From positions 62,001 to 126,000 of IMG/VR virus record IMGVR_UViG_3300021959_006010: a DNA stretch of 64,000 bases; one strand, written 5' to 3'. This DNA comes from a virus. Below are positions 11,832-27,680 of the stretch, piece after piece. Both the position numbers and the translations under genes were made by a program. Under the pieces are notes generated by a model. It saw only the letters and a program-made list of their open reading frames with translations, made no database searches and was not told the origin of the DNA. Each line of letters opens with the position of its first letter. The first letter of the stretch is position 1.

Positions 11832-11989
11832 AGTCCTGCCTCCCTAGCACGTTTTTCTATGTCTGTATCGTAATCTGGTTCTTTACGATTAACCGCCTCG
11901 TATGACGGATATCCTTTTTCAAATACTGGAGCAACCATTGCTTCTTCGTGTTTAATTGTCTTTTCCAATGTCTTAGGTCCCCCATGCAT
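11828..11989 (-). CDS. Small phage protein downstream of queE (53 aa)
   Basis: The frame is open for 187 codons, but most of that lies antisense-like inside queE. The credible gene starts at ATG 11989, overlapping the queE stop by 17 bases, and encodes a 53-residue charged protein beginning MHGGPKTLEKTIKHEEAM. Its stop overlaps the next ATG (ATGA). Function unknown. Confidence 0.6.
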   Translation of the reverse strand: MHGGPKTLEKTIKHEEAMVAPVFEKGYPSYEAVNRKEPDYDTDIEKRAREAGL

Positions 11990-12866
11990 TTCCGAATAGT
12001 GATATGTGGAGTCGAGGGCTGAATCGCCATCCTCGTTCCATACACGCTTCTGCCACATCTTTAACGTTGAGACTGTATTCTTCTGAACGTCCGCCAAGCG
12101 GCATAAGATATACTGGACACTCAACGCCTGCATCGCGGTATTCTTGAACAGCTCTACTAACTTCCTCAAAGTCGTCCATAGTAGCAACAACAAATTTAAA
12201 GTAAATATCGCTGCCATCCACAAGGGAATACTCACGAGCAACGTCAGGCTTAATAGCATCAGCCCAAGGTTCGCCTGAAACGGAGAGCTTTGGTGAGCAG
12301 CTAAATGTGACTTGAATTCTATCATTATCGTTGAGATAATTGAAGAAGTCATCGTGTAAAGGTTGTGTAGTATTAGTTTCAATTGTGACATTTTTCAAAT
12401 CGGCCATTTTAGGATGTTCGAACAACTCTACATAAAGTCGTTGCCAAGCTAGTAACGGCTCTCCTCCTGTTAAAATAAGATGGATATCTTGACCATTATC
12501 CATAGTCCACTTACCTTCCGGCAATAAACTAATCAAATGATCTACAACTTCGTCAACTTCTGCAAGTTTGTTAAAGTCTTTAAACTCTGGATAGATACTT
12601 GCGTATGTATCACAGCCTGTATGGATAATAGGCAAGTCTTCAAACTTTTCTGTAGTTTTGTGTACACCTGCATCGATCAATGCTTTTACTTCTGCATTGT
12701 AACGCTGACCTTCTTTGTGTTGCTCCCAACGATCTTTTTTAGTATCAACACCAAAGTTCATACAACGAAAGTTACAACCAAAGGTACGTAGGAACACACT
12801 AGGTACTCCTACGTATTTGCCTTCGCCTTGTACGCTATAGAACGCTTCACTATACCTCAGTTTCAT
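11973..12866 (-). CDS. queE: 7-carboxy-7-deazaguanine synthase (QueE), phage-type radical SAM
   Basis: 297 residues from ATG 12866. QueE is a radical SAM enzyme that contracts 6-carboxy-tetrahydropterin to 7-carboxy-7-deazaguanine, the core of queuosine and of 7-deazaguanine DNA modifications. Visible: the N-terminal YSEAFYSVQGEGKYVG substrate segment, the cluster site C31-N-F-R-C35 and LILTGGEPLL near residue 135. The usual third Cys of CxxxCxxC is Phe38; a distal C85 in HTGCDTYAS probably replaces it, as in other phage QueE proteins that I recall. It sits with folE (one gene upstream), and queD and dpdA lie 5-7 kb away. Confidence 0.88.
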   Translation of the reverse strand: MKLRYSEAFYSVQGEGKYVGVPSVFLRTFGCNFRCMNFGVDTKKDRWEQHKEGQRYNAEVKALIDAGVHKTTEKFEDLPIIHTGCDTYASIYPEFKDFNKLAEVDEVVDHLISLLPEGKWTMDNGQDIHLILTGGEPLLAWQRLYVELFEHPKMADLKNVTIETNTTQPLHDDFFNYLNDNDRIQVTFSCSPKLSVSGEPWADAIKPDVAREYSLVDGSDIYFKFVVATMDDFEEVSRAVQEYRDAGVECPVYLMPLGGRSEEYSLNVKDVAEACMERGWRFSPRLHISLFGNAWGT

Positions 12867-13134
12867 CAACGTCCTCCATAATATTTTCTAAATCATCAAA
12901 CGATGCTACATATTTTTTATTTGATTTGTCATCTAATACTTCTACTAAACGACTAGCAGTATCACGGGCAACCAATGCACCTGTGCTTGTGTAATTACCG
13001 TATTTTGCAATAGGTAAGTCAGCCATGCTATACATACCACCTGGACGACCAAATTGATCTAAAGGAATATCTTTAACTGTAAATGTGCAGTTATAAGATT
13101 TACCTGGTGTAATTTTTTCAATTGAAATACTCAT
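12850..13134 (-). CDS. Small phage protein between folE and queE (94 aa)
   Basis: 94 residues starting MSISIEKITPGKSYNCTF at the ATG that overlaps the folE stop (TAATG). Beta-rich and soluble, it contains YVASFDDLENIMEDVDETEV at the end. It overlaps queE by 17 bases. The position in the deazaguanine block is suggestive, but no function can be inferred; such small proteins also occur outside this context. Confidence 0.7.
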   Translation of the reverse strand: MSISIEKITPGKSYNCTFTVKDIPLDQFGRPGGMYSMADLPIAKYGNYTSTGALVARDTASRLVEVLDDKSNKKYVASFDDLENIMEDVDETEV

Positions 13135-13817
13135 TAGCAAGCAAACTCCTGTTGCAGTTTAATGTTGTCAAAGAACTCTTTCTTTGTTGCAGGATCGCTT
13201 TTAAAACTACCTTCAAGTACAGTTGTTTGTGTAAGACTGCTATGTGCCATAATGCCGCGGTTCTCACAGCAACCGTGTGTTGCTTGGATATAAACACCTA
13301 CGTTATGTGCGCCAGTTGCAGACTTAATCTCGCGTGTAATATCATTTGCAAGTTCTTCTTGTAGTGTACCACGTCGAGCACACCACTGGGCAATACGTGT
13401 GTATTTAGAAAGACCAATTAGTTTAGGACCTGCAATAATACCAATGTACGCTACACCGCTCACTGGCTGGTGATGATGCGAACACATACTTTTTAGTTCG
13501 CTTCGTACAACTAGCATACCATCATAGCGTTCGTCTGAATCGTTTGGAAATGCTGTTGCATCTGGACGACCATCATAACGGCCTGCCATAATTTCGTTAA
13601 AGTACATTTTAGCAAGTCGCCGTGCTGTACCTTTACTGTTAGGATCGTTGTGTCGATCGATGATCAATGTATCAAGAACAGTTTCAAATGCTTCTGTTGC
13701 TTCTTCGATTAATTGCTCTTTTTCGCCTGGATGTATCAGACGATGCACATTGTCTCCTGCCCAAAAGCGTTTATCAGCAGCCTTGCAACGTGCAATAATT
13801 TCTTCGTATTTCTTCAT
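13134..13817 (-). CDS. folE: GTP cyclohydrolase I (FolE)
   Basis: 227 residues, near the family length. FolE converts GTP to 7,8-dihydroneopterin triphosphate, the first step towards folate and 7-deazaguanines. The zinc and catalytic residues are visible: C112 and H115 in MCSHHHQPVSG, and C183/C184 in HGCCENRG. The signature PKLIGLSKYTRI is at 131-142. It has its own sigma70-like promoter overlaid by an inverted repeat. With queE, the QueD-like gene and dpdA it forms most of the preQ0 pathway. Confidence 0.95.
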   Translation of the reverse strand: MKKYEEIIARCKAADKRFWAGDNVHRLIHPGEKEQLIEEATEAFETVLDTLIIDRHNDPNSKGTARRLAKMYFNEIMAGRYDGRPDATAFPNDSDERYDGMLVVRSELKSMCSHHHQPVSGVAYIGIIAGPKLIGLSKYTRIAQWCARRGTLQEELANDITREIKSATGAHNVGVYIQATHGCCENRGIMAHSSLTQTTVLEGSFKSDPATKKEFFDNIKLQQEFAC

Positions 13818-14102: not shown

Positions 14103-14528
14103 TTAAATTCCTTCCATTGATTCTACTGCATACTCAACAAATCCAGAAGAAAGTCTAGTATAATCTCCCTTACCAGGAACACAATGACGTATGCCTCCCT
14201 TTGGATTTTCGCAATCTCCGTGTCTACGGAATATTAAATGTATATGAGGATACATGCAAGTTTGTCCTGCACTTTCTCCGACATTAATTCCTATATTGTA
14301 ACCTGTAATATTGTTTGTCGAACTACTGACATTTTGTTTACCCATTTCGAGTGCAAATTTAAAACATTTAAGAATTTCTTCCTGGGTATTTATTTTAGGA
14401 ACAACAAGAGTATGACCCTCTGTGACAGGAAAGCCGTCATTGAATACTACAAAATCTCTAGTATTCAATTGTATATCAGTCCAAGGAGCACGACCTTCTT
14501 GTTGTGCTAATTCTAAAGTATCATTCAT
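14103..14528 (-). CDS. HIT-family nucleotide-binding protein
   Basis: 141 residues from ATG 14528, which overlaps the upstream stop. HIT proteins are nucleotide hydrolases or transferases acting on dinucleoside polyphosphates or AMP-lysine-type adducts. FPVTEGHTLVVPK (33-45) is the family strand-loop, and PHIHLIFRR is the histidine-triad region. H95 and the presumed catalytic H97 are kept; the third His is I99, so activity may be altered. Next to pterin and nucleotide genes it could act in nucleotide salvage, but this is inference. Confidence 0.82.
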   Translation of the reverse strand: MNDTLELAQQEGRAPWTDIQLNTRDFVVFNDGFPVTEGHTLVVPKINTQEEILKCFKFALEMGKQNVSSSTNNITGYNIGINVGESAGQTCMYPHIHLIFRRHGDCENPKGGIRHCVPGKGDYTRLSSGFVEYAVESMEGI

Positions 14529-14796
14529 CTTCGTCAAACCCTTCCCAATTCTCAATATCGTCTTCATAAAAATCAGCATCGTCTAATTGGTTAAGTAAAT
14601 TACTAAAACCGATTTGCATTACACTATATTGATTTAGATCATTATTACGAAAATTTTCAATTTCGTTTATCTGCTCTTCAGTAAGATCCCAGATTTCTTC
14701 TACGCTATAATGATCAAGAACTTGTCCGATGACATCGTCGGTAATGTCACGTTCGTAGTTTTCTTCCCATTTGTGTATTCTATTCCACTCAAACAT
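14521..14796 (-). CDS. Acidic small phage protein (91 aa)
   Basis: 91 residues, strongly acidic, ending DDIENWEGFDEDE; two helices are likely. It overlaps the HIT gene and the phosphoribosyltransferase gene by 8 bases each. An acidic DNA-mimic type role is conceivable but unsupported. Not recognised. Confidence 0.68.
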   Translation of the reverse strand: MFEWNRIHKWEENYERDITDDVIGQVLDHYSVEEIWDLTEEQINEIENFRNNDLNQYSVMQIGFSNLLNQLDDADFYEDDIENWEGFDEDE

Positions 14797-15358
14797 TTCC
14801 TACATTCTCCCAAGGATATACAAGCCAAACATCTTCTTCAGCTTTGTTAAGTTCGTATGCGTGATAGTTTACTTCTCCAAATTCGCTGCTTAAATTCTCT
14901 GTCATTACTGCAAAGCGAACATTTTCTCCCCATACTGTCTTCCATGCCGGACTGTCTGGCAAACAGGTTGATTTCCAATCTTGTTTAATCCAGTTAAATG
15001 TAGCACCAGTATCGTTAATATCATCTAAAATAAGAATGTTTTTACGGTTTTCTTTACTGGCTTTAAAATGTCCTAACATAGGGTCATACATTTCTTCAGT
15101 GTCGTTATAACCGTATGCATCTTCACTCATCCAACAGTTACTTTCACTAGACTCACCTTCGTGGTTGTCACGTAGACTAACCTTTAGTGCTTCACAACGG
15201 ATACCTAACATATTGCTTAGGATAGTAGCAGGAACATTGCCGCCTCGTGTAATACCTACAATGTAGTCAGGCTTCCAATTATCGTTATACATCTGTAGTG
15301 CAATGTTTAGACATGCACGTTCTACATCTTTCCAACTATAATAGTGTTTCTTAATCAT
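14789..15358 (-). CDS. Phosphoribosyltransferase-like protein (PRTase type I)
   Basis: 189 residues. The PRPP-binding signature ILILDDINDTGAT is at 108-120, and the N-terminal PPi loop region GITRGGNVPA is at 35-44. This fold transfers phosphoribosyl groups in purine or pyrimidine salvage. The purine (hypoxanthine/xanthine) type is the closest impression. A role in salvage or in handling deazaguanine bases in the same operon is possible. Coupled by ATGA to the upstream gene. Confidence 0.85.
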   Translation of the reverse strand: MIKKHYYSWKDVERACLNIALQMYNDNWKPDYIVGITRGGNVPATILSNMLGIRCEALKVSLRDNHEGESSESNCWMSEDAYGYNDTEEMYDPMLGHFKASKENRKNILILDDINDTGATFNWIKQDWKSTCLPDSPAWKTVWGENVRFAVMTENLSSEFGEVNYHAYELNKAEEDVWLVYPWENVGNV

Positions 15359-15955: not shown

Positions 15956-17023
15956 TCAATCCAAATGTCGTTCTTTGATTTGCTCATATAGTGTTGCTCC
16001 ACTAAAAAACTCTTTGTTTAGTTTAGTACGTTGCTTGTCTAAACTTACCATATAGTCATCATAGTTTTCCATATAGTCTCGGACTTTTGCAACAAGATCA
16101 CCTCGATGCGTTCTATAACTACCGTAGTCTTCAGTCCATCGACTTGGATATTTAAATTCAGGAAGTGCCATTTCTGAATAACTTAATCTATCTGGCACCA
16201 TAGGAATAGCATTTACAAGAGCACCTTCGTACCAACTAATACCAAGTGTTTCTTGCAGGTTAGCAGAAAATATCATCTTTGCTTCGCCTAGCAAGTTATG
16301 ATACTCGTTCTTAGTAAGTGTTTGATCTTGACATACTACAAACTCATATTCTGGCAGTTGTTCTGCTAGATCGCGGAAAATGTCTACCTGTTTCTCTGGA
16401 GCAATGCGATGTGGGAATAGTATAAGATTACGCTTATCCATACCGCTGTATGTAACAAGGCTTTCTTTTAGATACTCCATAGGCCAACCTACACGATGTA
16501 TTTTATCATAATCAATATTATAGTCTTCCATCATTACATCTGTAAACATATCAATATGGAAGTCAGTTGCAAAGAAGTTATCGTCATAGCATTGGAACAT
16601 TGACATTTCTGCATGACGCACCCAAGGCTTATCACCAATTAATCTTCCGAGGAAGTCTTGCGGATCGTATGATCCGGCATGCCATAATCCCCCAATGCGT
16701 ACATCCACGCCGAGTAGTTCCGCCATGTAACGTAGTTGTATAACAGTAGGGTTCCAAGCATCTGTGTATAAAAAGTAGTCACCGGTTTTAACTTTTCCAT
16801 TACAAAACATTTCTCCTATTGTTTCAAGTTGCTTAGACTTGTAAACATTAGTGCCACCGAAATTGAGAAACGCCCCAGGCGTAGTAGCCTGAGGTGTATC
16901 TCCTCCACTAATAACTTCTACATTTGTATTTGTAGCCCGTTGCAGTTGCTTTGGAAGATATTCTTTCCATTGTTTAGTATAGCGTGTGTCAACTGCTTCG
17001 ATGTCTACAATATAAATTGTCAT
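15956..17023 (-). CDS. Glycosyltransferase, GT-B fold
   Basis: 355 residues. The C-terminal half has the nucleotide-sugar domain pattern of retaining GT-B enzymes: FPHRIAPEKQVDIF near 220-235, then NLQETLGISWYEGALVNAIP near 270-290, with the E-x7-E-type acidic pair. The N-terminal half has FGGTNVYKSKQLE and GLWHAGSYDP. Substrates are unknown. Lying inside the deazaguanine gene block, it might glycosylate modified DNA bases, as T4 glucosyltransferases do, or decorate host or virion surfaces; neither is shown. Confidence 0.8.
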   Translation of the reverse strand: MTIYIVDIEAVDTRYTKQWKEYLPKQLQRATNTNVEVISGGDTPQATTPGAFLNFGGTNVYKSKQLETIGEMFCNGKVKTGDYFLYTDAWNPTVIQLRYMAELLGVDVRIGGLWHAGSYDPQDFLGRLIGDKPWVRHAEMSMFQCYDDNFFATDFHIDMFTDVMMEDYNIDYDKIHRVGWPMEYLKESLVTYSGMDKRNLILFPHRIAPEKQVDIFRDLAEQLPEYEFVVCQDQTLTKNEYHNLLGEAKMIFSANLQETLGISWYEGALVNAIPMVPDRLSYSEMALPEFKYPSRWTEDYGSYRTHRGDLVAKVRDYMENYDDYMVSLDKQRTKLNKEFFSGATLYEQIKERHLD

Positions 17024-17252: not shown

Positions 17253-17702
17253 TTATGACTTAGGGTAAAAAATCGAACAACCATTTTCGTTGTCCTCTGC
17301 GACACTAATTTCTACAAAACGGTTAGGATATTTTGCAGAAATTTCTTTATACAAGTCATCTGCGATCATTTCGCAAGACTTGTGATTTAACTCTAGTACG
17401 CCTTCGACGTCATAGAGTCGTTGCATCCACCGTTTAAATTGAATAAATTCAATATCACGATCGTTGTGGAATACTTCGATGCGAACACGGAAATGGAAAA
17501 TGTGACGATGTGGAATACCAAGGAATGACACATCATCCCAGTCACCGGTTGCTAGTGCAGGATCCTTGTCAGCACCTGGATACATATGTACGCCTTCTTT
17601 TGCAAAGGTTACCCAAATACTGCGCTCTGCGTTTTTCATAAGATCATTCATATCTTCTTCTTTCATTCTACGTAACATATAATCATGATATCGTTCTTGC
17701 AT
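17253..17702 (-). CDS. queD: 6-carboxy-5,6,7,8-tetrahydropterin synthase-like protein (QueD/PTPS)
   Basis: 149 residues. QueD turns dihydroneopterin triphosphate into the substrate of QueE. The PTPS-type zinc histidines are seen in IPHRHIFHFRV (H65, H67, H70), followed by an ELNHKSCEMIADDL helix and a C-terminal VAEDNENGC strand. The protein diverges from bacterial QueD at the N-terminus but matches the phage PTPS-like type I recall. It is transcribed from its own sigma70-like promoter, close to dpdA and in the same block as folE and queE. Confidence 0.82.
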   Translation of the reverse strand: MQERYHDYMLRRMKEEDMNDLMKNAERSIWVTFAKEGVHMYPGADKDPALATGDWDDVSFLGIPHRHIFHFRVRIEVFHNDRDIEFIQFKRWMQRLYDVEGVLELNHKSCEMIADDLYKEISAKYPNRFVEISVAEDNENGCSIFYPKS

Positions 17703-17711
17703 TGTTTATAC

Positions 17712-17740
17712 AGTATACTTTCATTCAATAACTTTGTCAA
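17712..17740 (-). promoter_or_regulatory. Sigma70-like promoter of the QueD-like gene
   Basis: TTGACA (17740-17735), 17 bases, TATACT (17717-17712) on the minus strand, about 10 bases before the ATG and inside the end of the upstream gene. Transcripts would have a very short leader. Confidence 0.65.
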
Positions 17741-18257
17741 GGCCATATTTGCTCCAATCTGTAAACTTTTCTCTATCCATCAGATCGTGCAAACTATGAC
17801 ACCAGACACCTGGGTTAGTTGCCTTAAAGTCTACATCATCAATTTTAATCATTGTGTTGTAGTTCCAAAGTTTCGTGTAAGGCAATGGAACACGAATTTG
17901 TGGAATAAAGTTATCTTTTTCGCAAAGGCCACCGTCGTGGAAGTTTGCTACGTGATCAAGTGGAATATCAAGTGTGCAAAGAATGTCTTTGTCTAGGAAG
18001 TATTCAATCATATCTTCCCATTCTTGCCAACTGTCAAACAAGCTCTTTGGACCTGTTTCATTTGGTTTGAAACTGTGATTAGCACCAAAAAAGATATGCT
18101 CACACTGTTCTTTTTCGTACCAGAATTCAATTTCATCTGTAGGTTGTACACCTGTTACAAACAATGTACGCATACCGTAAGCAGGAGTCTTTTCAACTTC
18201 AACGCCTACAAAGTACTTTACATCAGTTTGTACACCGTCTTCGTAATCTCTTTTCAC
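17721..18257 (-). CDS. Conserved phage protein next to queD (178 aa)
   Basis: 178 residues from a GTG that overlaps the upstream stop (GTGA). Segments such as LFVTGVQPTDEIEFWY, HIFFGANHSFKP and IPQIRVPLPYTKLWNYN look folded, and I associate similar proteins with queD neighbours in marine phages. It has no radical SAM, PP-loop (QueC) or QueF motif. A role in deazaguanine handling is guilt by association only. Confidence 0.75.
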   Translation of the reverse strand: MKRDYEDGVQTDVKYFVGVEVEKTPAYGMRTLFVTGVQPTDEIEFWYEKEQCEHIFFGANHSFKPNETGPKSLFDSWQEWEDMIEYFLDKDILCTLDIPLDHVANFHDGGLCEKDNFIPQIRVPLPYTKLWNYNTMIKIDDVDFKATNPGVWCHSLHDLMDREKFTDWSKYGLDKVIE

Positions 18258-18415: not shown

Positions 18416-18625
18416 TTAAGTTAAACCTAGTTGTATTAATTTAGAATTTATTCTATGCATTTCGTCTTTGAGATATAATTTCATAGTCTTCATTCGTCGA
18501 ACTTCTTCAGTGACAGTAACATTACTATAACGCACTTCTATTTCTTTGTCAAGTGCTCTATGTCGTCTTTCAAGTTCTTCGTAACGTGCTCTAAGTTTAT
18601 CTTCATCAGATTCAAAGTTGCTCAT
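18416..18625 (-). CDS. DUF465/YdcH-like small helical protein (69 aa)
   Basis: Start placed at ATG 18625, overlapping dpdA by 14 bases. 69 residues begin MSNFESDEDKLRARYEELER and continue as two helices with MKTMKLYLKDEMHRI, the pattern of DUF465 proteins (a helix, a turn and a basic helix). These are small proteins without a known reaction. It sits between dpdA and queD. Confidence 0.7.
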   Translation of the reverse strand: MSNFESDEDKLRARYEELERRHRALDKEIEVRYSNVTVTEEVRRMKTMKLYLKDEMHRINSKLIQLGLT

Positions 18626-20138
18626 CTTCCAGTTCCTCGAGTTTAGTTTCATCGAGTTCTTCGTTCTCGTCAATAGTTTCTTCTACTTCAAAAAGATTAT
18701 CGAAGAACGTACTAGCATTTACAGTCTTTTTACCAACTGCACCTCTAGTACCAGGAATAGCCATCCAAAAACGGCTATGCTCATCTACAAGTGCTAGGGC
18801 CTTGTCTTTGTCGTCAGTTGCGAATATTTCTTCCACAATGTCTCTAAAAAATAACCTGTCAAAGCGTTCTTGAACAAGCATGCGCGGAACGCATCCATTG
18901 TCGTATTGTCTGTTTGCTTCTTGTACTGCATTTATGTGACTCCATACGTTGTGCCCCATTTGGATAGCGTAACTAAAACTATCCCAAGACGTTTTGCCTT
19001 CTTTGCCTATTTTATTTAGGTCTCCGGGAGCATAAGTGCAAACGTCTGATACTTTGAGTTCAGCGGTAATTGGCGAGTCTTCAAAGTTTTTAAATATCCC
19101 ATCTGATATAACAGCATCTCTAAAGATGCGGTTGTCCGTAGCATATTTCTTATCGTCAACTGACGGCACCATACGATACGTCCATTTGCTTCTATCTTGA
19201 GTTTCGTTTTGAATGTAGATTTGTCCGTTCGCGGTGGCAAGAAAAGGACTAGCACAATCAAAAGTAATAGTATAGTTTTCATTATGATGTTTCCGTACTG
19301 CTCGTTGAATGTCTGTTAATAGAGTAGCCCATTCTAGTTTGCTTGTACCTAGGAAGTGCATAAAGTCTTGCACACCTTTTTCTAACAAACCATCATAGCG
19401 CAATGCAATCAATCTTTTAAGTACAAGATGCACATCGCACATATTCTGACCACCCATTGACCAACCATTAAAGTGTTCGTTTGGATAGTGTTTAGGATCA
19501 CTATACTTCTTCATACGCTGATACCAATCTTCTGCGTCAGCGTGATTTTCACCTTGTAGAACGTTTAAGAACTTACAGTTACCGTTGCGGTTACGGATAA
19601 ACCAATCGTTATTAATGTAAGTGCCTTGTACAGCTTCCATATAAGTTGTAATACCAGTTGCTTTCTGTCCAGCTGGCGAACGTGCTACCCACGCAGGAAT
19701 ATCAAGTATCATACCATAATCCATGTAAGCATCCATCCACGTAAGAACCTGCTCACGCTTCTTTTGAGCACGAGGACAGTTAGGATCTTTCCAGTCACCT
19801 TCCCAAACACCCTTACCAATCTGGAAGCCGCCTGAGTCACCTAGCACCCAACTGTTTTTACGATCTCTGTTGCGGATCATATCTTCTTTAGGTGCGTGTT
19901 TGTTTACATCTAATTCAGCATGTCCTGCTGAATACAGTGTCCAGTGATAGTTAAACAGACCTTGTTGCTTGTTTAGATAGTTTAAACTTTCAACACCATT
20001 GGTAAAATTACTAGGAATACGAGCCGGATCAACATAGTTGTCAAAACGTTGTTTGCCTACGTAAGTGGCATAAAAGCCACTTAACGCAGGAAGAAAAACA
20101 GCATAATCTTTTTGTGTTGCAGTTAAGTCTTTATTCAT
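18612..20138 (-). CDS. dpdA: DpdA-like tRNA-guanine-transglycosylase-family protein (deazaguanine insertion into DNA)
   Basis: 508 residues. The TGT fold is marked by LGDSGGFQ (D101, the first catalytic Asp), NVLQGE near 192-197, GWSMGG near 225-230, HFLGTSK near 261-267 and FDCASP with D294 at the nucleophile position. The CxCxxC zinc site of tRNA TGTs is not visible, as in DpdA proteins that exchange guanine in DNA for preQ0-type bases. The C-terminus is acidic. Together with folE, queE and the QueD-like gene it predicts 7-deazaguanine-modified phage DNA, a known protection against host restriction enzymes. Confidence 0.85.
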   Translation of the reverse strand: MNKDLTATQKDYAVFLPALSGFYATYVGKQRFDNYVDPARIPSNFTNGVESLNYLNKQQGLFNYHWTLYSAGHAELDVNKHAPKEDMIRNRDRKNSWVLGDSGGFQIGKGVWEGDWKDPNCPRAQKKREQVLTWMDAYMDYGMILDIPAWVARSPAGQKATGITTYMEAVQGTYINNDWFIRNRNGNCKFLNVLQGENHADAEDWYQRMKKYSDPKHYPNEHFNGWSMGGQNMCDVHLVLKRLIALRYDGLLEKGVQDFMHFLGTSKLEWATLLTDIQRAVRKHHNENYTITFDCASPFLATANGQIYIQNETQDRSKWTYRMVPSVDDKKYATDNRIFRDAVISDGIFKNFEDSPITAELKVSDVCTYAPGDLNKIGKEGKTSWDSFSYAIQMGHNVWSHINAVQEANRQYDNGCVPRMLVQERFDRLFFRDIVEEIFATDDKDKALALVDEHSRFWMAIPGTRGAVGKKTVNASTFFDNLFEVEETIDENEELDETKLEELEDEQL

Positions 20139-20227: not shown

Positions 20228-20956
20228 TTACTTGCTTTGCGCTGGCAGGATATAGTCATACTTGGCCATACCACTGTCTACTGAAATCATCATAGCACCT
20301 TGATCTGAAATGCTCATAGTAATGTCGCCGTCCAAATTTAAGATTGCTTGTACTTGTGCTACTGGCCAACTCCAAGTGTGCTGTAGCGCACCTTCAACAC
20401 CGTGTTGGAATACAAACTCACCTGCATGTGTGCTTGCATCGCCAAAGCTAAACACTAAGTTACCATCAGTAGTACGAACATTAAAGTTAGGTTCTTCCGA
20501 GTGTGCTGCACTCATAAGTTTCATACGACTAATAGCAGCTACGCTCGGTGCAACTTCTACATTCCAATTAGCGCCTTTGAATTTTACAGTCTTTAGTTTT
20601 TCTTCAATAATCGCTTTATTCATAAAGCGGTAATCGTTCTGGAAGTCGCCTGCTGCGTTTTCAAAGTGTATATGTGTCGGAACAGTTTCGCCGTTGCGTT
20701 CTGCCTGTACAACTTCAATTTTTGCATTGTCTTTGTACTCCGGATTTTTTAAGTGTAGCGATAATTTATCTAGATTAGGCATACCAAATGTGCCTAAAAA
20801 CTCTGCTACAGGATTGTGTGTTACTGCTGATAAAATCACAGAGCGGTCCTCTGCCATTGAATCAATTGCTGTGCCATCTTCGTTAGTGACTTTTACTAAT
20901 GATAAGAAGCCTAGTGCGTGAGTATGAGCTACTACGTCTTGCAAAATATCTTTCAT
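20228..20956 (-). CDS. 45: DNA polymerase sliding clamp (gp45 type)
   Basis: 242 residues, close to T4 gp45 (228). The sequence has the N-terminal FLSLVKVTNE strand, the central FKGANWNVEVAPS region and a C-terminal YDYILPAQ. The clamp tethers gp43 and, in T4-like phages, activates late transcription. It has a sigma70-like promoter inside the end of the epimerase gene. The polymerase ends in NSLFDFGD, a probable clamp-binding tail. Confidence 0.88.
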   Translation of the reverse strand: MKDILQDVVAHTHALGFLSLVKVTNEDGTAIDSMAEDRSVILSAVTHNPVAEFLGTFGMPNLDKLSLHLKNPEYKDNAKIEVVQAERNGETVPTHIHFENAAGDFQNDYRFMNKAIIEEKLKTVKFKGANWNVEVAPSVAAISRMKLMSAAHSEEPNFNVRTTDGNLVFSFGDASTHAGEFVFQHGVEGALQHTWSWPVAQVQAILNLDGDITMSISDQGAMMISVDSGMAKYDYILPAQSK

Positions 20957-21723
20957 TCTACTGTTTCTCCATTGAATAAGTTAATTATATTGCCTAAGTT
21001 GTTGTTTGTCAAGAACTTTTCTACTGTGTATTTAGGTTTAAAGCCTAGTGCTTTCATTTTTTCTGTGTTAGCACAAGTCCATTCTCGTTCTCCTGGGGTA
21101 TTTAGACGCACTGGCAAGTCCGGTGCTAAGTCTTGGATCCTAACAGGATTCCCTGTACCAATGTCAATTACACCATTGACATGATCTTTTTCTATTAAAA
21201 TTTCTATAGCGTCTAGTACATCATCTAAATGTATAAAGTCTCTATAATGTCTAGTTACGTATTCTAATGTTCCGTTCCTTAGTTTATTAAAGAACATGTT
21301 TTCTCTAGGACAGTTGTCGCTGTATACTGTATGGAATCTCATACCTAACATATTGCCGGAGTTATATCTCTCAGCTAATTCTTCCATTATGTATTTCGAA
21401 GCGGCATAAGGGTTCAAATCGGGCTCGTAAGCACTTGAACTGCTCGCATACAGTATACGTGTATCTGAGTAACGTTCAAACAATCTACGACTTGCTTCTA
21501 CGTTATTCATCCAATAACTTGCAGGGTCTTGTAAACTCTCACGTACTCCGCTTTTACCTGCTAAGTGTATAATTAAATCATAATCTTCAGTAAAGTCGAC
21601 AGTTAATAAATCTCTATTTGCCCATTTAATATCCAGTCCATATATATCGTGCTTTTTTGAGTCTAATCGATTCATTAATGCACTGCCGATAAATCCCATA
21701 TGGCCTGTAATTAATATTTTCAT
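20953..21723 (-). CDS. NAD-dependent sugar epimerase/dehydratase (extended SDR)
   Basis: 256 residues. The N-terminal TGHMGFIGS is the Rossmann TGxxGxxG loop, and ASSSSAY (near 93-99) followed by YAASK (107-111) gives the Ser-Tyr-Lys catalytic set. FRDFIHLDDVLDA-type sequence is the typical sugar-nucleotide domain. It resembles UDP-glucose 4-epimerase and related enzymes but is shorter than the usual 310-340. It starts the cassette with the UDP-sugar dehydrogenase and phosphomannomutase genes upstream. Confidence 0.87.
   Translation of the reverse strand: MKILITGHMGFIGSALMNRLDSKKHDIYGLDIKWANRDLLTVDFTEDYDLIIHLAGKSGVRESLQDPASYWMNNVEASRRLFERYSDTRILYASSSSAYEPDLNPYAASKYIMEELAERYNSGNMLGMRFHTVYSDNCPRENMFFNKLRNGTLEYVTRHYRDFIHLDDVLDAIEILIEKDHVNGVIDIGTGNPVRIQDLAPDLPVRLNTPGEREWTCANTEKMKALGFKPKYTVEKFLTNNNLGNIINLFNGETVE
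20984..21012 (-). promoter_or_regulatory. Sigma70-like promoter of the sliding clamp gene
   Basis: TTGACA (21012-21007), 17 bases, TATAAT (20989-20984) on the minus strand, inside the last codons of the epimerase gene and about 28 bases before the clamp ATG. Confidence 0.78.
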
Positions 21724-21726
21724 TTG

Positions 21727-22476
21727 CTATTCCTTCCTTATCCTTTTATTATAAGAACAAGCTTCTTTAATTAAACTTAAATCTACCTTGTACTGATTTG
21801 CAGTATTAATAATGGCACTAGTGTCTTTAGGAAAACAAGCACCGCCCCATCCACGTTCGGGCGTAATGTTTATGTGACTGAATCCTATTCTTTCGTCCTG
21901 TGCGATGCCTTGTGCTACTGCATCGTAATTAATACCTGTTGCTTTGCACATGTCGTAAATTTGATTAAAGAAACTTACTTTAGTTGCAAGAAATGCATTC
22001 TTAAAATACTTTATAAGTATAAGTTCTTCTGGATCAGCAACTATAAATCCAGCATTTAAAACTTTTTCAAATACACTAATCCAGAAACTACTGTGTTCTT
22101 CACTTAGATATATAATGCTTACAGTTTGCATATCTTCTAAGTAAGATTCTGCTCGTAAAAATTCTGGACTAAAACATAGCTTATGATCCGGAAATATTTC
22201 TTTAAGAAACTTCCATCCTTCTAAACTAATAGTGCTTTTAATTAGTATAGGAGTATTCTTAGAAATAGATTCTATACAATCATACACATTACTCATGTCA
22301 CACGCACCTGTGCTTAGTTCAGGTGTTGGAACACAAATAATAGCACACTCTTCTTCAAATTCTGGAACAGCTAAATTAGGATATTTAGGATCTATAATAT
22401 TAATATAGTTGCCGTGTCGAAGTACTTCGTAATGCGCCTTTCCAACAAAACCATATCCATATAGATTAATATTCAA
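21727..22476 (-). CDS. UDP-glucose/GDP-mannose dehydrogenase-family protein, short form
   Basis: 249 residues. GYGFVG at 7-12 is the NAD-binding loop, SPEFLRAESYLED (103-115) is the family signature, and GWGGACFPKD (209-218) carries the catalytic C214. These enzymes oxidise UDP-glucose or GDP-mannose to the uronic acid. The UDP-binding C-terminal domain is absent; the family is usually 390-450 residues. The central helix (KYFKNAFLATKVSF) is present, so it may be a reduced but functional enzyme or have another sugar nucleotide as substrate. Confidence 0.88.
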   Translation of the reverse strand: MNINLYGYGFVGKAHYEVLRHGNYINIIDPKYPNLAVPEFEEECAIICVPTPELSTGACDMSNVYDCIESISKNTPILIKSTISLEGWKFLKEIFPDHKLCFSPEFLRAESYLEDMQTVSIIYLSEEHSSFWISVFEKVLNAGFIVADPEELILIKYFKNAFLATKVSFFNQIYDMCKATGINYDAVAQGIAQDERIGFSHINITPERGWGGACFPKDTSAIINTANQYKVDLSLIKEACSYNKRIRKE

Positions 22477-23195
22477 TTTGCTATACCTTTTGACTGTAAA
22501 TCAATTAATAGATTGTATGTATCTGTCCAGTCTTTAACATGATACACGTTTCCGTCATGTTCTTTTAAAACTTTTGCTAGAGGAAAATCATTACCGTCGG
22601 GATCTACTCTATCGCCAAAGAAATGTATTTCACTGTATGGAGCGTCAAAGTCGGATAGTATTTGACTTTTGTCTCGACCCTTAGCAGAAATATCTATTCC
22701 AGTCTCCCCTCCAACAGTTGCTTGTAAATCAGGAAACATTGTATTAAAAGCATCGCTTATTATATTTCGTTCGTTTATTGATTTATCAAACTCTACATAC
22801 ATTTTACGTTGTTCTGTATTAGCACCTCTACCTATTACGCTAAAATTACACATTCCTTTTCTGTGTTCGAAGTGTTGTCCTGTACGTAAACTAAACGCAC
22901 TTTCAGTTAAGCACTGAGCTAGAAACGTGTGTGCAGTTTCTGACAAGACCCAGTCTGAACTGTTAACACGTTTTCCTTTAAACCATGTATCATTTCCGTT
23001 ACAGTTATAAACAGTAACAACAGAATCGCAGATTTCTTTACCTAATTGTTCTTTAGTTTTAGGATAATCACTACCAGTCACTAACCAAACTTTATTGTTT
23101 TTGGTAAATTCTAAGAAAAACTTCTCAAAATCAGAATCTACAATTTGTCTACTTGGAGTTAGTGTTCCATCTACATCAAATATAAACTTATTCAT
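22473..23195 (-). CDS. Eukaryotic-type phosphomannomutase (HAD superfamily, PMM2-like)
   Basis: 240 residues from ATG 23195 with AAGGG before it. DVDGTLTP (7-14) is the HAD nucleophile motif, with D7 and D9. HRKGMCNFSVIGRG (111-124) and GGETGIDISAKGRDK (162-176) match the cap and sugar-binding segments of alpha-PMM/PMM2, and HFFGDRVDPDGND ends the core at 203. Such enzymes interconvert mannose-6-phosphate and mannose-1-phosphate, feeding GDP-mannose. This eukaryotic-type family is uncommon in phages. It overlaps the dehydrogenase gene by 4 bases. Confidence 0.85.
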   Translation of the reverse strand: MNKFIFDVDGTLTPSRQIVDSDFEKFFLEFTKNNKVWLVTGSDYPKTKEQLGKEICDSVVTVYNCNGNDTWFKGKRVNSSDWVLSETAHTFLAQCLTESAFSLRTGQHFEHRKGMCNFSVIGRGANTEQRKMYVEFDKSINERNIISDAFNTMFPDLQATVGGETGIDISAKGRDKSQILSDFDAPYSEIHFFGDRVDPDGNDFPLAKVLKEHDGNVYHVKDWTDTYNLLIDLQSKGIAN

Positions 23196-23352
23196 CTGGC
23201 CCTTCACAGTATGCAATCTCGTTTTCCTTAAAGTCCATAGTTACAAGATGCCATTCTATTTGACAACTCATTTTACTATCGTACTCGGCATACCGAGTAT
23301 ATTTAGGTTCGTCTAAACCTATTACACTAGTTATGATCCAAAGTGTCCACAT
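23188..23352 (-). CDS. Small protein with hydrophobic N-terminus (54 aa)
   Basis: 54 residues from ATG 23352 with AAGGAG 8 bases upstream. MWTLWIITSVIG is a short signal-like start, and a mature part holds two cysteines (MSCQIEW and AYCEGPDE). Possibly exported or periplasmic. Overlaps both neighbours by a few bases. Not recognised. Confidence 0.6.
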   Translation of the reverse strand: MWTLWIITSVIGLDEPKYTRYAEYDSKMSCQIEWHLVTMDFKENEIAYCEGPDE

Positions 23353-23525
23353 TACGGATTCTCCTTAATCCAAACACATTCACTAATATCTTCTGGTGTT
23401 TCGTACATACTACGACATTCGTCATAAGGATGAGTATATATACCTCCTGCGCCAGTTGCATAATCAATTGCTACTGCCCAGCCACCAAGTGCTAGACCCC
23501 ATGCTATAATTTCACTAAGTTTCAT
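23352..23525 (-). CDS. Small protein with hydrophobic N-terminus and two Cys (57 aa)
   Basis: 57 residues from ATG 23525, overlapping the upstream stop (ATGA) and the downstream ATG (TAATG). MKLSEIIAWGLALGGWAVAI is a signal or membrane helix, and the rest has DECRSM and SECVWIKENP. The layout is like that of the 54-residue neighbour, which suggests a pair of small envelope-targeted peptides. Unknown function. Confidence 0.6.
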   Translation of the reverse strand: MKLSEIIAWGLALGGWAVAIDYATGAGGIYTHPYDECRSMYETPEDISECVWIKENP

Positions 23526-23710
23526 CCTTGTTGTGCCTTATGCTGTGCTACACTTGCTGCCTTTGCAAGTTCGCTAAAACGATCTGCTGTTTGGCGCATT
23601 TCAGCACCGTAGTTAGGATCACGCTGTTCTAAATCTCTTGCCATATTGTGTAACAGCACAACCATATCGCTGTCTGTTAATGCTTTACGACCTTCAGGCA
23701 GTTGTCCCAT
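23522..23710 (-). CDS. Small helical phage protein (62 aa)
   Basis: 62 residues, helical, with DMVVLLHNMARDLEQRDPNY and an Ala/Gln-rich end. Coupled by ATGA to the next gene. Not recognised. Confidence 0.66.
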   Translation of the reverse strand: MGQLPEGRKALTDSDMVVLLHNMARDLEQRDPNYGAEMRQTADRFSELAKAASVAQHKAQQG

Positions 23711-23711
23711 T

Positions 23712-23891
23712 TTATCTCTCCACTAGCGGCATTGCGTTTTGACTATCGTGATAATCACCGTCTTTGTAATAGTCACGCACTGCTGTTTCTTTTACTAGCA
23801 TACCGTTTTTATAACGATATGTAGTGATCTCACGACGAACTACGCCGTGAGTGTCTGCGTCAAATGCGTTCTTAAAAGGTCCTTCAACCAT
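23712..23891 (-). CDS. Small phage protein (59 aa)
   Basis: 59 residues beginning MVEGPFKNAFDADTHGVVRR, with several Tyr and Lys and no hydrophobic helix. It overlaps the upstream nucleotidyltransferase gene by 8 bases. Not recognised. Confidence 0.6.
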   Translation of the reverse strand: MVEGPFKNAFDADTHGVVRREITTYRYKNGMLVKETAVRDYYKDGDYHDSQNAMPLVER

Positions 23892-24303
23892 TATTTTCCC
23901 TTTCTGCTACTCGCTTGCGCAAGTCTGATGATGAGAAGCGGTGATCTCGTTTATTAAAGTAGAGCTGGATACCCCGCTTCTTGCAAATATCCTTGCCCGT
24001 AAAATCCTTTTCTTTATACTCTTCTCCTAATATTCTAACATCAATTTGATACATTGTCAAGATATCTTCTAGATCTTTTTCAGTAGAGTATGGAACTATT
24101 TCGTCTACATAACTTACTGCTTTTAGTTGAGTGTAGCGTTCTACAACAGTTTGTATAGGAGCGTTTTTTTCTGCTCTATCTTGACTAGGATCAAATTGTA
24201 ATCCGCATATTAGATAGTCGCATTGTTCTTTTGCTTCACGCAACATCTGTATATGACCTGCGTGTAACAAATCAAATGTACTACATGTAAATCCTACCTT
24301 CAT
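23884..24303 (-). CDS. Cytidylyltransferase-like nucleotidyltransferase (TagD/GCT type)
   Basis: 139 residues, the size of glycerol-3-phosphate cytidylyltransferases. TFDLLHAGHIQ (9-19) contains the HxGH nucleotide-binding motif, and RFSSSDLRKR near 122-131 fits the second (RTxGISTT-type) motif. The likely product is a CDP- or ADP-activated sugar or alditol. It forms a cassette with the epimerase, dehydrogenase and phosphomannomutase genes. Confidence 0.87.
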   Translation of the reverse strand: MKVGFTCSTFDLLHAGHIQMLREAKEQCDYLICGLQFDPSQDRAEKNAPIQTVVERYTQLKAVSYVDEIVPYSTEKDLEDILTMYQIDVRILGEEYKEKDFTGKDICKKRGIQLYFNKRDHRFSSSDLRKRVAERENNG

Positions 24304-24407
24304 TTTATATTCTCTGCTAGTTGTTTTAACATTTCAATCAATTCTTCAATGGTATTTAGGTCGTGTTCGCTTTCTGTATCAATTTCTATTTCTACTTTCA
24401 CTTTCAT
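24300..24407 (-). CDS. Very small acidic protein (35 aa)
   Basis: 35 residues, MKVKVEIEIDTESEHDLNTI followed by a helix ending ENIK. ATGA overlaps at both ends fix it between the oxygenase and nucleotidyltransferase genes. Expression is plausible but unproven. Confidence 0.55.
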   Translation of the reverse strand: MKVKVEIEIDTESEHDLNTIEELIEMLKQLAENIK

Positions 24408-25006
24408 AATTTTAACTCAGTTAAATTTCTATGACTGCCAATTGTTCCTTTAAAAAAGGTATTGAATGACAAACTAATTCTTGTATGATCTTGTTCTAAA
24501 GGTCTAACACTATGTACTAGTTTAGATGGAAAAATCAACAATGATCCTGTTTCTGCTGGCAACCACCAAGAACTAGAATTATAAATGTTATAATTGTCTG
24601 ACGGTAGTTCAAATGGCTCCCATTGGTTGTCAAAGAAAAATATTTTATCTTCTTCTGTTGTGTTAATATAAAACACTCCGCTTAAAAAACTATTATTATG
24701 AGAATGAGTATGATGGAATCCACCTTGATCAGTAAAGTTTAACCAACTTTGTGTAATAGTTAGTTCTGCATCAGTTTTAGTAGCAAACACTGTATCAAAA
24801 TATTCATTTATCTTTTTCTCGCAAAAACTTTTAAGACTTTGTAGTTCTTTAGATTCGAGAATATATCGATCAGTTGATGTTAAATTGCCGTCATTTAGAT
24901 CTGATTTTTCTTTTTGTTCTAAACAAAAATTATACTCTTCTTCAGTTAAGTCTCTATCTATTTTTGTGTTACCTACTGGTTTAGGAAACAAAGGTGTTAG
25001 TTCCAT
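24404..25006 (-). CDS. 2-oxoglutarate/Fe(II) oxygenase-like protein (TIGR02466 type)
   Basis: 200 residues from ATG 25006, preceded by GGAG. The cupin-type motif GGFHHTHSHNNSF (95-107) holds the first iron histidines, and FPSKLVHSV (159-167) holds the distal His, with an Arg (R176) for 2-oxoglutarate. Such phage enzymes are usually of unknown substrate. It lies directly after the DNA polymerase, and a second family member lies at 49.7 kb. Possible roles are nucleobase hydroxylation, prolyl or peptidyl hydroxylation, or sugar modification. Confidence 0.82.
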   Translation of the reverse strand: MELTPLFPKPVGNTKIDRDLTEEEYNFCLEQKEKSDLNDGNLTSTDRYILESKELQSLKSFCEKKINEYFDTVFATKTDAELTITQSWLNFTDQGGFHHTHSHNNSFLSGVFYINTTEEDKIFFFDNQWEPFELPSDNYNIYNSSSWWLPAETGSLLIFPSKLVHSVRPLEQDHTRISLSFNTFFKGTIGSHRNLTELKL

Positions 25007-25007
25007 A

Positions 25008-27680
25008 TCAATCTCCAAAGTCAAACAAACTATTAAAAGTAGTATGCTGTTTTGTATCTTCTAGTGGATAGTCGAGCACACCGATCAAGTTGTCTAGTTT
25101 GTTGTCAATAATAGTTTCAGCCATAGCTGCATCATCAAATGGCAATTCTTTGAACCATTCTGGCAAACGTAGCTCATCTGTAGGATATGCTACACTAGTA
25201 TATCCTAGCGGATTTGGTTTAAGTTTACAAACAATAACTTTCATACCGTCTACAATCTCTTGCGAGTATTTGTCACCGTTCATACGTTTTAGTGTATTCC
25301 AGTTGATACTTGCTCGAACGTGTCCAGGCATGTTTGCTTTGCCTTGCTTTTGCTCAAGACGCTGATAGTGTCCAATCTTGTTTGCACGTTTAGGCGAACC
25401 TTTCTCCCAACCTGGCATTTCTTGGAACTCTTTGCGGAACTGTGTAATACGCTCTAGAACATCTTCTTGTGGAGTATCTGTAAGAACCATTAGTAGTAGT
25501 TCTTTTAAGAAGTCCTGCATAAACACCGGAGTGTCTGATCTACGTAAGTCTAGACCCATTGCTTTTACTTTACCAGGCTTACCGTCTGTGTCAGCTCGAA
25601 AACCTTCTAAATCAGTTACTAGTGCCGCATAACGCTTCTTAGTAATGTACAAGCCTGAACTAGCAACAATCTCACGACCGGCTGCAATAACATCACTTCT
25701 TGTCTTAGGACAATGGAATGCTCTTACCATAAAGTCAGGAAATGTAGTATTTGCTTGCTCACACACTTGATCGTACAATGCAATACATTTGTCAATGTTA
25801 AAATCAAGTTTGCCTGCTTCGACATCATCTTTAAGCACAGGCCATGCACTAAAGTATACAGAGTCAGTATCACCATAGATAACTGCTTTACCTACATGAT
25901 CATACTCGCCTGTAATACAACTATTAACTTCGGCACTCATATGCTTAACAATCTGTCTACCAGTTAAGGTTGTTGATTGTCCAATACGTTTATCAAAGAA
26001 TCTACAGCCTGGGTTAAGAATAGCACCGTACAAGCTATTAAGATTAATTTTCTTAACAAGTTGACGTTTATCCCAGTACTCAATCTCTGCATCAATGCCT
26101 GCATCTTTAGCTTTCTTAAGTTTCTTTTGTAGTTCTTTTCGTTCTGCATACCACCTCTTTAGGATACCTGGAATAACACCTTCAAACTCTGTGGTAAAGA
26201 TAGTACCATTTGCACTAAGCATCCACGGCATTTGACTATCAAATATAAGTTGATAAATTTCTGCGCCGCTTAGTACATCTGAACGTCCATCTTCCCAGTC
26301 AACAGTAAGTGCAATATCTTTGCGTTGTTCCATAACTGCTTCGTATTCTTCTGTTGAAAAACGTCCTTCCCAACTACCTGCAAATGACTTTTTCTTTAGT
26401 GTCATGTCTTCGTGTACACGAGCGTCTGAAATCTCTGGACGAATTTGTCCTATAATTGTTTCTGGCGCCATGTTCAGCGCACGAATCACTGACGGATACA
26501 GTGAGTTCAAGTCCATTGAGCCAATGTACTTGTGCAATCCTTTTTTAGGAAACGCAACATAAGCACCTGCTGCCTGTGTGCTTTCTGACTCATCACGTTT
26601 AGGACGATTAGGAACTTGCAGTCCACGGTTGTGTGCTTCGTTAATAATACCTTGTTCTGTAACAGCAACAGCACCCATTGTAGTTTGTAGTAGTACAGTA
26701 TTCTCGTGTGCAATGCTGTTTGACAAGTCGATAAAACGTAGTTTCTTATCTAGTTTGTCTAGTAGTGCAGTATCCTGAATGTTATATTCAATAAACTTGC
26801 GAAAGTCATTGTTGTATAGTTGATCTAGTGTGCCTTCATACGGTACCTTGTTTTCGCCTACTTCAATCTCGCCAATTGCGTCCAGTCGATATGAGTGACG
26901 TTCTTCATAAGTGTATTTGCGATACAGTTCTAAACTGTCCAAGTGTACACGACCTACCAAGTCAAATGTAACTGCTTGCTTCCCGTATTTTTCATACTCA
27001 CGCTTCTTAGGCAACTGACCCCACAAGCAGAAACGTCTTGTATCGTCTTTACTCAATACACGACTTACACGGTTTACAGTATACGGAATATCGTAACCTT
27101 CACTGTTCCAACCACTTAGGATGTCTGCATCTTGTATCAAGTCTAAGAACGTGTTTAGCATGTCTGCTTCTTTTTCAAACAGTACAACACCTTCTAAACC
27201 TTCTACTTCTTTTTCTGCTTGCTCCATAGTAAGTGTCTTAGGCGGAACAGCAAGACACACCATTGTCTCTAACCATTGCAAGTACACAGACACAGACGTA
27301 ATGCCCATAAATGGATCTGCTGGATCAGCAAAGCCACGTTCTGGGTCAAAGTCTGTCTCAATATCGAAAAACGCAATGTTTAGTTTAGGTGCATCTTGGT
27401 TGAGATAGTTCTCACTCAAACATTGGAAGATTGGATTAATGTCGCTTTCGAACAAGTTCTTGCCTTTGTTAATAGCAACTTCTTTTCGAAAGTCTTTTGT
27501 GTTCTTACAAACAATACGACTTAGAGGATCTCCGTACACACTCTTGTACTTGCCTCGAGGATCTTCATAATAGAACGTATATTTTGCAGGGTATTCGTGG
27601 AAATGTCGCTTTCCATCGCGGCGTTCGACTACTCGAATAATATCTTGATCACGATCAAACATCGCATCTACATATGGCAT
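25008..27680 (-). CDS. 43: DNA polymerase, family B (gp43 type)
   Basis: 890 residues, close to T4 gp43 (898). The 3'-5' exonuclease motifs are FFDIETDFD (D106, E108), GWNSEGYDIPY (190-200) and YNIQDTALL (299-307). Polymerase motifs are MDLNSLYPSVI (D390), NLNSLYGA (546-553) and YGDTDSVYF (602-610). The C-terminal TTFNSLFDFGD is a likely clamp-binding tail. The replicative polymerase is complete. Its leader carries two hairpins before the ribosome site, where T4 gp43 is known to autoregulate. Confidence 0.97.
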   Translation of the reverse strand: MPYVDAMFDRDQDIIRVVERRDGKRHFHEYPAKYTFYYEDPRGKYKSVYGDPLSRIVCKNTKDFRKEVAINKGKNLFESDINPIFQCLSENYLNQDAPKLNIAFFDIETDFDPERGFADPADPFMGITSVSVYLQWLETMVCLAVPPKTLTMEQAEKEVEGLEGVVLFEKEADMLNTFLDLIQDADILSGWNSEGYDIPYTVNRVSRVLSKDDTRRFCLWGQLPKKREYEKYGKQAVTFDLVGRVHLDSLELYRKYTYEERHSYRLDAIGEIEVGENKVPYEGTLDQLYNNDFRKFIEYNIQDTALLDKLDKKLRFIDLSNSIAHENTVLLQTTMGAVAVTEQGIINEAHNRGLQVPNRPKRDESESTQAAGAYVAFPKKGLHKYIGSMDLNSLYPSVIRALNMAPETIIGQIRPEISDARVHEDMTLKKKSFAGSWEGRFSTEEYEAVMEQRKDIALTVDWEDGRSDVLSGAEIYQLIFDSQMPWMLSANGTIFTTEFEGVIPGILKRWYAERKELQKKLKKAKDAGIDAEIEYWDKRQLVKKINLNSLYGAILNPGCRFFDKRIGQSTTLTGRQIVKHMSAEVNSCITGEYDHVGKAVIYGDTDSVYFSAWPVLKDDVEAGKLDFNIDKCIALYDQVCEQANTTFPDFMVRAFHCPKTRSDVIAAGREIVASSGLYITKKRYAALVTDLEGFRADTDGKPGKVKAMGLDLRRSDTPVFMQDFLKELLLMVLTDTPQEDVLERITQFRKEFQEMPGWEKGSPKRANKIGHYQRLEQKQGKANMPGHVRASINWNTLKRMNGDKYSQEIVDGMKVIVCKLKPNPLGYTSVAYPTDELRLPEWFKELPFDDAAMAETIIDNKLDNLIGVLDYPLEDTKQHTTFNSLFDFGD

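Follow-up and report, generated by a model that had tools for sequence, protein, structure and literature searches.

A phage cassette with a PMM2-type phosphomannomutase as a candidate sugar supply for 7-deazaguanine in DNA

Modification of phage DNA with 7-deazaguanine has been described with the genes DpdA, FolE, QueD, QueE and QueC (PMC6884629), and phage-encoded sugar activation is known from the sugar modification of cytosine with arabinose in RB69 and with a pentose in Thanatos (PMC12838424). Here we analysed a stretch of 64,000 nucleotides (the window), comprising bases 62001-126000 of the 275,366-bp virus record IMGVR_UViG_3300021959_006010 (the whole record is cited as G000). It represents a large marine phage, and its DNA polymerase has its nearest relatives in jumbo phages, e.g. 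Phosso, Atu_ph07 and 121Q. Between the sliding clamp and polymerase genes lies a cassette encoding, in this order, a nucleotidyltransferase (NT), four small open reading frames (ORFs), a PMM2-type phosphomannomutase (PMM), a dehydrogenase and an epimerase. We tentatively propose, at only slightly less than even chances, that this cassette provides the activated sugar with which 7-deazaguanine in the phage DNA is glycosylated.

The phosphomannomutase and its cassette

Coordinates and Pfam matches confirmed the gene list and position given in an earlier sequence-only reading, which had placed an epimerase, a dehydrogenase, a PMM, an NT and small ORFs between clamp and polymerase:

25008-27680: DNA polymerase (cassette boundary)
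23884-24303, minus strand: NT, TagD/HldE-C-type nucleotidyltransferase (PF01467, 8.8e-16)
23712-23891, minus strand: p59, small conserved ORF with homologues in several viral contigs
23522-23710, minus strand: p62, small conserved ORF with homologues in viral contigs
23352-23525, minus strand: p57, small ORF with homologues in viral contigs
23188-23352, minus strand: p54, small conserved ORF overlapping the PMM start, with homologues in viral contigs
22473-23195, minus strand: PMM, PMM2-type phosphomannomutase of the HAD-IIB group (PF03332, phrog_29277)
21727-22476, minus strand: two-domain UDP-glucose/GDP-mannose-type dehydrogenase with the catalytic Cys, lacking the third domain (PF00984, PF03721)
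20953-21723, minus strand: nucleotide-sugar epimerase/dehydratase of the short-chain dehydrogenase/reductase family (PF01370, 6.8e-27; phrog_540, 2.2e-47)
20228-20956, minus strand: sliding clamp (cassette boundary), homologous to the annotated Phosso clamp and to the Paride protein that follows its polymerase

The PMM matched PF03332 with 99.8 bits (curated cut-off 22.4; E 2.5e-28) and phrog_29277 at 1.2e-76, a family listed in PHROGs as of unknown function, and its best relatives of solved structure (PDB) were all PMM1/PMM2-type. Cyanophages S-SSM7 and P-TIM68 carry members of the family as hypothetical proteins. The ORF spans 22473-23216 from a TTG codon, and because the relatives begin at MNKFIFDVDGT, the ATG at 23195 is the likely start rather than the upstream TTG.

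In a tree of 59 rows, all 46 phage PMMs formed one clade (support 98/94), sister to eukaryotic PMM1/2 (97/75, with the second value below 80); eukaryotic and bacterial sampling was thin in this tree, with only five rows of each, and the distant outgroup had a very long branch. Sphingomonad and Lactococcus HAD-IIB proteins and the HAD proteins of Acinetobacter phages fell outside the group of phages and eukaryotes, and the phylogeny, which the sequence-only reading had asked for as a check, gave no tight clustering of the phage PMMs with bacterial HAD phosphatases. As for individual residues, D12, D14, R21, S47, R123, N128, R134, R141 and D181 of human PMM2 were present in 46 of 46 phage PMMs, as were the HAD nucleophile and acid/base Asp (DxDGT). 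R21, S47, N128, R134 and R141 were common to all phage and eukaryotic rows, while the five bacterial homologues presented K, G/T, T, Q and K, respectively. Since these substrate residues are shared with the eukaryotic rows and absent from the bacterial ones, a mutase role appears more likely for the phage PMM than a plain phosphatase role.

Few bacterial genomes matched PF03332: in one phylum there were 3 out of 299 and in a second 2 out of 198, each figure including the seed genome, and one (Lactococcus) among 14 controls. When the PMM was searched against 84,980 bacterial and archaeal species, five loci came up, all on contigs of metagenome-assembled genomes; of these, L151 plainly corresponds to the phage locus seen in the window and L152 shows a T4-like arrangement. 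The scan of viral contigs yielded at least 590 viral relatives. Taken together, the sister relationship, the retained PMM2 residues and the scarcity of PF03332 in bacteria support the eukaryotic type of the enzyme. The sequence-only reading is to be amended in one respect: the clade is a widespread viral family, and the gene in this phage does not stand for a single transfer from a eukaryote. This raises the origin of the eukaryote-type PMM as a question, the nearest relatives in this sampling being viral.

The surroundings of the PMM, and those of DpdA below, were compared in contig scans; as these retained only the 80 best matches and favour close relatives, all counts serve as description. 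Of the 45 first-round contigs, almost every one with sufficient flank had the NT next to the PMM or close by, usually together with the epimerase and/or dehydrogenase. The NT was near the PMM in 47 of 67 non-redundant loci (at least 2.5 kb on both sides), 39 of which also had a dehydrogenase and/or an epimerase; given this recurrence, the arrangement is not due to chance. The PMM and NT set occurred in unrelated contexts, namely the window lineage, T4-like loci, L028, where it accompanies a thymidylate-synthase-family gene, and L041, where the PMM-NT-epimerase-dehydrogenase set stands beside a TET-associated DNA glycosyltransferase (TAGT, 1.9e-45). In Acinetobacter phage Ab1-TPeters, a distant NT (62%) and a HAD protein (25% identity) are side by side. 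The composition of the cassette differs between loci.

Two further loci were noted. Acinetobacter phage AB1I1M-1 (L066:4818-9747) has a distant PMM-like HAD protein a few genes from two annotated glucosyltransferases. At L079:6693-10711, genes for QueD, a DAHP/KDO-8-P synthase family protein, a glycosyltransferase and a 2-oxoglutarate (2OG) oxygenase lie just upstream of the PMM, with a UvsE-like gene downstream.

Within the window, the cassette genes overlap or abut (PMM and dehydrogenase share 4 nt, as do epimerase and clamp), which suggests that they form one operon. Many viral contigs have detectable homologues of p54, p57, p62 and p59 in the corresponding position, and a search for repeats in the cassette gave nothing notable. 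A 2OG-Fe(II) oxygenase gene (PF13759) is found at 24404-25024, between the polymerase and the NT. The G+C content was 0.338 in the dehydrogenase stretch and 0.308 in the oxygenase stretch, as compared with about 0.40 in the flanking polymerase and DpdA genes, which fits later acquisition and is no proof of it. Other occupants of the slot between polymerase and clamp were considered as sugar-donor genes and rejected, as those inspected resemble by eye a methyltransferase, an exonuclease and a cupin, not sugar nucleotidyltransferases. In relatives, e.g. L216:3326-4246, the slot holds a methyltransferase-like protein of 306-326 aa, and in L216 (5039-5614) and L222 a sulfotransferase-like protein follows the clamp, both by eye. 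The polymerase gene itself appears to be in three separated pieces in a relative (L038:33-4580), and that of Paride is split by an annotated homing endonuclease.

The neighbouring deazaguanine and glycosyltransferase genes

Beyond the clamp, the window contains the following genes:

18612-20138, minus strand: DpdA-type (TGT-fold) transglycosylase, predicted from an AlphaFold model, PDB fold matches and invariant motifs
17721-18257, minus strand: p178, conserved partner with no assigned function; homologue in the ACP17 deazaguanine cluster
17253-17702, minus strand: p149, conserved partner with no assigned function; homologues adjoining or near the glycosyltransferase in Paride, Phosso and ACP17
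15956-17023, minus strand: GT355, GT-B, GT4-like retaining glycosyltransferase, predicted from its model, fold matches and EX7E motif
13134-13817, minus strand: FolE, GTP cyclohydrolase I (PF01227, 2.2e-38)
11973-12869, minus strand: QueE-like radical S-adenosylmethionine (SAM) enzyme (phrog_2076, 4.5e-52; QueE NCBIfam models, E down to 1.6e-13)

The protein encoded at 18612-20138 (508 aa) had no Pfam match, and PF01702, the model for tRNA-guanine transglycosylase (TGT), did not match at E values up to 10. When it was modelled with AlphaFold (pLDDT, the model confidence score, 79; structure models were built from alignments of the window and related contigs only), the 17 best PDB fold matches were all tRNA-guanine transglycosylases, with a best E of 8e-7, and DSGGFQ and D294 (in FDCASP) were invariant. 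The model thus predicts a DpdA-type, TGT-fold transglycosylase, in which we infer from TGT that D294 is the nucleophile. DpdA2 of phage nt-1 was likewise recognised only through remote homology (PMC6884629). FolE and QueE are encoded inside the window and QueD outside it, at G000:139959-140339.

Two candidates were rejected: p149 as QueD was unproven, since hhalign to phage QueD was negative and the true QueD lies elsewhere, and a PP-loop gene (G000:164369-164968) considered as QueC resembles TilS by eye. At G000:C1:50745-56286 (L053), a QueC-like PP-loop protein forms an island with radical SAM-like proteins and what may be a 2OG oxygenase.

The GT355 model (pLDDT 72) gave PDB fold matches to GT-B/GT4 enzymes, with EX7E at E258/E266, and wherever a minimum of 4 kb was available downstream of DpdA, GT355 followed it (52 of 52 loci). 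A homologous glycosyltransferase, a p149 homologue and QueE occur together in Pseudomonas phage Paride, Sinorhizobium phage Phosso and Acidovorax phage ACP17; in ACP17 the order is QueD, FolE, p178 homologue, TGT homologue, glycosyltransferase, p149 homologue and QueE. This recurrence in three deazaguanine clusters links the glycosyltransferase to deazaguanine modification by evidence that does not depend on the window; DNA modification is not a topic of the paper on Paride. Both p149 (17253-17702) and p178 (17721-18257) are conserved families travelling with the DpdA and glycosyltransferase pair, and genes for a HIT-domain protein and a phosphoribosyltransferase are located between FolE and GT355 (14103-15358).

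In the proposed pathway, PMM would convert a hexose-6-phosphate, most likely mannose-6-phosphate, to the 1-phosphate, from which the NT would form a nucleoside diphosphate (NDP)-sugar, with CDP or ADP suggested by its family; the dehydrogenase and epimerase would then yield a uronic or otherwise altered derivative. FolE, QueD and QueE would make the deazaguanine base, the DpdA-type enzyme would exchange it into phage DNA, and GT355 would transfer the cassette sugar to it there. The scheme builds on observed gene identities, on the residues and phylogeny of the PMM, on the TGT and GT-B folds of the models and on the conserved gene linkage, while the mutase activity, the sugar, the order of the reactions and DNA as the acceptor are all predictions. 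A broader version, which we consider possible at somewhat less than even chances, is that the DNA bears glycosylated 7-deazaguanine, inserted by DpdA and glycosylated by the GT4-like enzyme with p149 and p178, while the slot between polymerase and clamp picks the sugar or decoration.

Several observations weigh against this proposal. S179 of PMM2 is Gly in 45 of 46 phage PMMs; the dehydrogenase has no C-terminal, nucleotide-binding third domain, its matches stopping after the central domain; among solved structures, the NT comes nearest to ethanolamine-phosphate (1.5e-26) and glycerol-3-phosphate cytidylyltransferases; the confidence of the GT355 model is moderate; and QueC gave only a weak, partial match below the cut-off. 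Of 63 DpdA loci with upstream sequence, 23 had the NT and 17 the PMM, and some DpdA contigs carry PMM/NT elsewhere than beside DpdA. In addition, no DpdA of the window family was detectable in some phage records with PMM/NT, including T4-like and cyanophage ones. Because many DpdA and glycosyltransferase loci have no cassette, the glycosyltransferase does not need it; as PMM/NT also occurs without DpdA, the cassette looks like a replaceable source of the donor and not like an essential component.

The same distribution would agree with an NDP-sugar made for a different acceptor, be it the host envelope, structural proteins of the phage or hydroxymethylated pyrimidines, with DpdA and GT355 merely sharing the operon region; so would the presence, in two contexts without DpdA, of TAGT (L041) and of a thymidylate-synthase-family enzyme (L028). 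We consider this explanation rather unlikely, as in the window lineage the cassette directly precedes clamp, DpdA and GT355 in many loci, none of the proteins examined was recognisable as a lipid or envelope transferase, and the one thymidylate-synthase-family gene found in this genome scores like a canonical ThyA (E 5e-102). The sequence-only reading had suggested a rare sugar nucleotide for DNA or virion modification or for altering the host envelope; the DNA part is plausible and is backed by the neighbouring DpdA and GT4-like glycosyltransferase, neither of which that reading mentioned; nothing specific pointed to the envelope or the virion.

The proposed sugar route

A mannose route to the NDP-sugar is favoured as the best reading by a second NT in the same genome that is fused to a mannose-6-phosphate isomerase domain, and by the mannose-6-phosphate isomerase near the NT of phage S-B43, which is 52% identical to that of the window. 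The fusion protein (G000:C1:244680-245438; L061:680-1438) combines PF01467 with PF01050 (1.9e-25; GMP_PMI 2e-24) and might provide the mannose-6-phosphate. The window NT is 80% identical to a Vibrio phage protein. The dehydrogenase matched PF00984 (3.9e-27) and PF03721 (4.3e-7), covering the NAD and central domains with the catalytic Cys, and its two-domain form is conserved in 37 homologous ORFs of 233-277 aa.

An ADP-heptose-like route, in which the HAD protein would serve as sugar phosphatase or as heptose phosphomutase alongside an HldE-C-like NT and an HldD-like epimerase, agrees with the best NCBIfam matches of the NT (TIGR02199, the HldE adenylyltransferase domain, 75.5 bits) and of the epimerase (HldD, 64 bits). 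Both scores fall far short of the values required for an equivalog (181.5 and 274.6 bits), and that of the NT against TagD is also below its cut-off (TIGR01518, 67.5 versus 165.4 bits). Together with the PMM2 substrate arginines of the HAD protein and the isomerase domain encoded elsewhere in the genome, this makes the heptose route improbable, no search having been aimed at GmhA or the HldE kinase. It is equally hard to believe that the NT is an alcohol-phosphate cytidylyltransferase (CDP-ethanolamine/glycerol-like) within a loose auxiliary metabolic set, as its nearest structures and the varying cassette composition might suggest, since PMM and NT adjoin in several unrelated gene contexts, including the distant Acinetobacter phage pair, which argues for a shared pathway.

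Comparison with known systems

Phage 7-deazaguanine DNA and phage sugar activation for cytosine sugars are both known. For sugar-bearing deazaguanine in DNA, and for a part played by PMM2-type mutases in modifying phage DNA, an incomplete literature search turned up no earlier report. The proposal gives the large viral family phrog_29277 a testable function linked to phage DNA armour and suggests that phages may themselves make the sugar with which their genomes are coated. Should it hold, glycosylated deazaguanine is to be expected in the DNA of culturable phages, e.g. Paride and ACP17, with a bearing on restriction and CRISPR evasion.

The phage PMM shares with eukaryotic PMM1/PMM2 (PF03332) the fold family, the HAD motif and nearly all tested catalytic and substrate residues, and forms their sister clade, while it differs in being viral, in the S179 to Gly change (TGSD versus GGSD) and in that its activity is a prediction. 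As in described phage 7-deazaguanine systems, a TGT-fold enzyme with DSGGFQ is encoded together with FolE, QueD and QueE; in contrast, there is no clear QueC, the DpdA is regularly accompanied by a GT4-like transferase along with p149 and p178, and PF01702 is blind to it. TAGT hypermodification is linked to the cassette through L041, where the same four-gene set joins TAGT, although the window glycosyltransferase is GT-B/GT4-like and no TAGT. With RB69 and Thanatos, the window phage has in common that nucleotide-sugar synthesis for DNA decoration would be phage-encoded, whereas it uses a PMM2-type mutase and a TagD-type NT, and both the base and the sugar probably differ.

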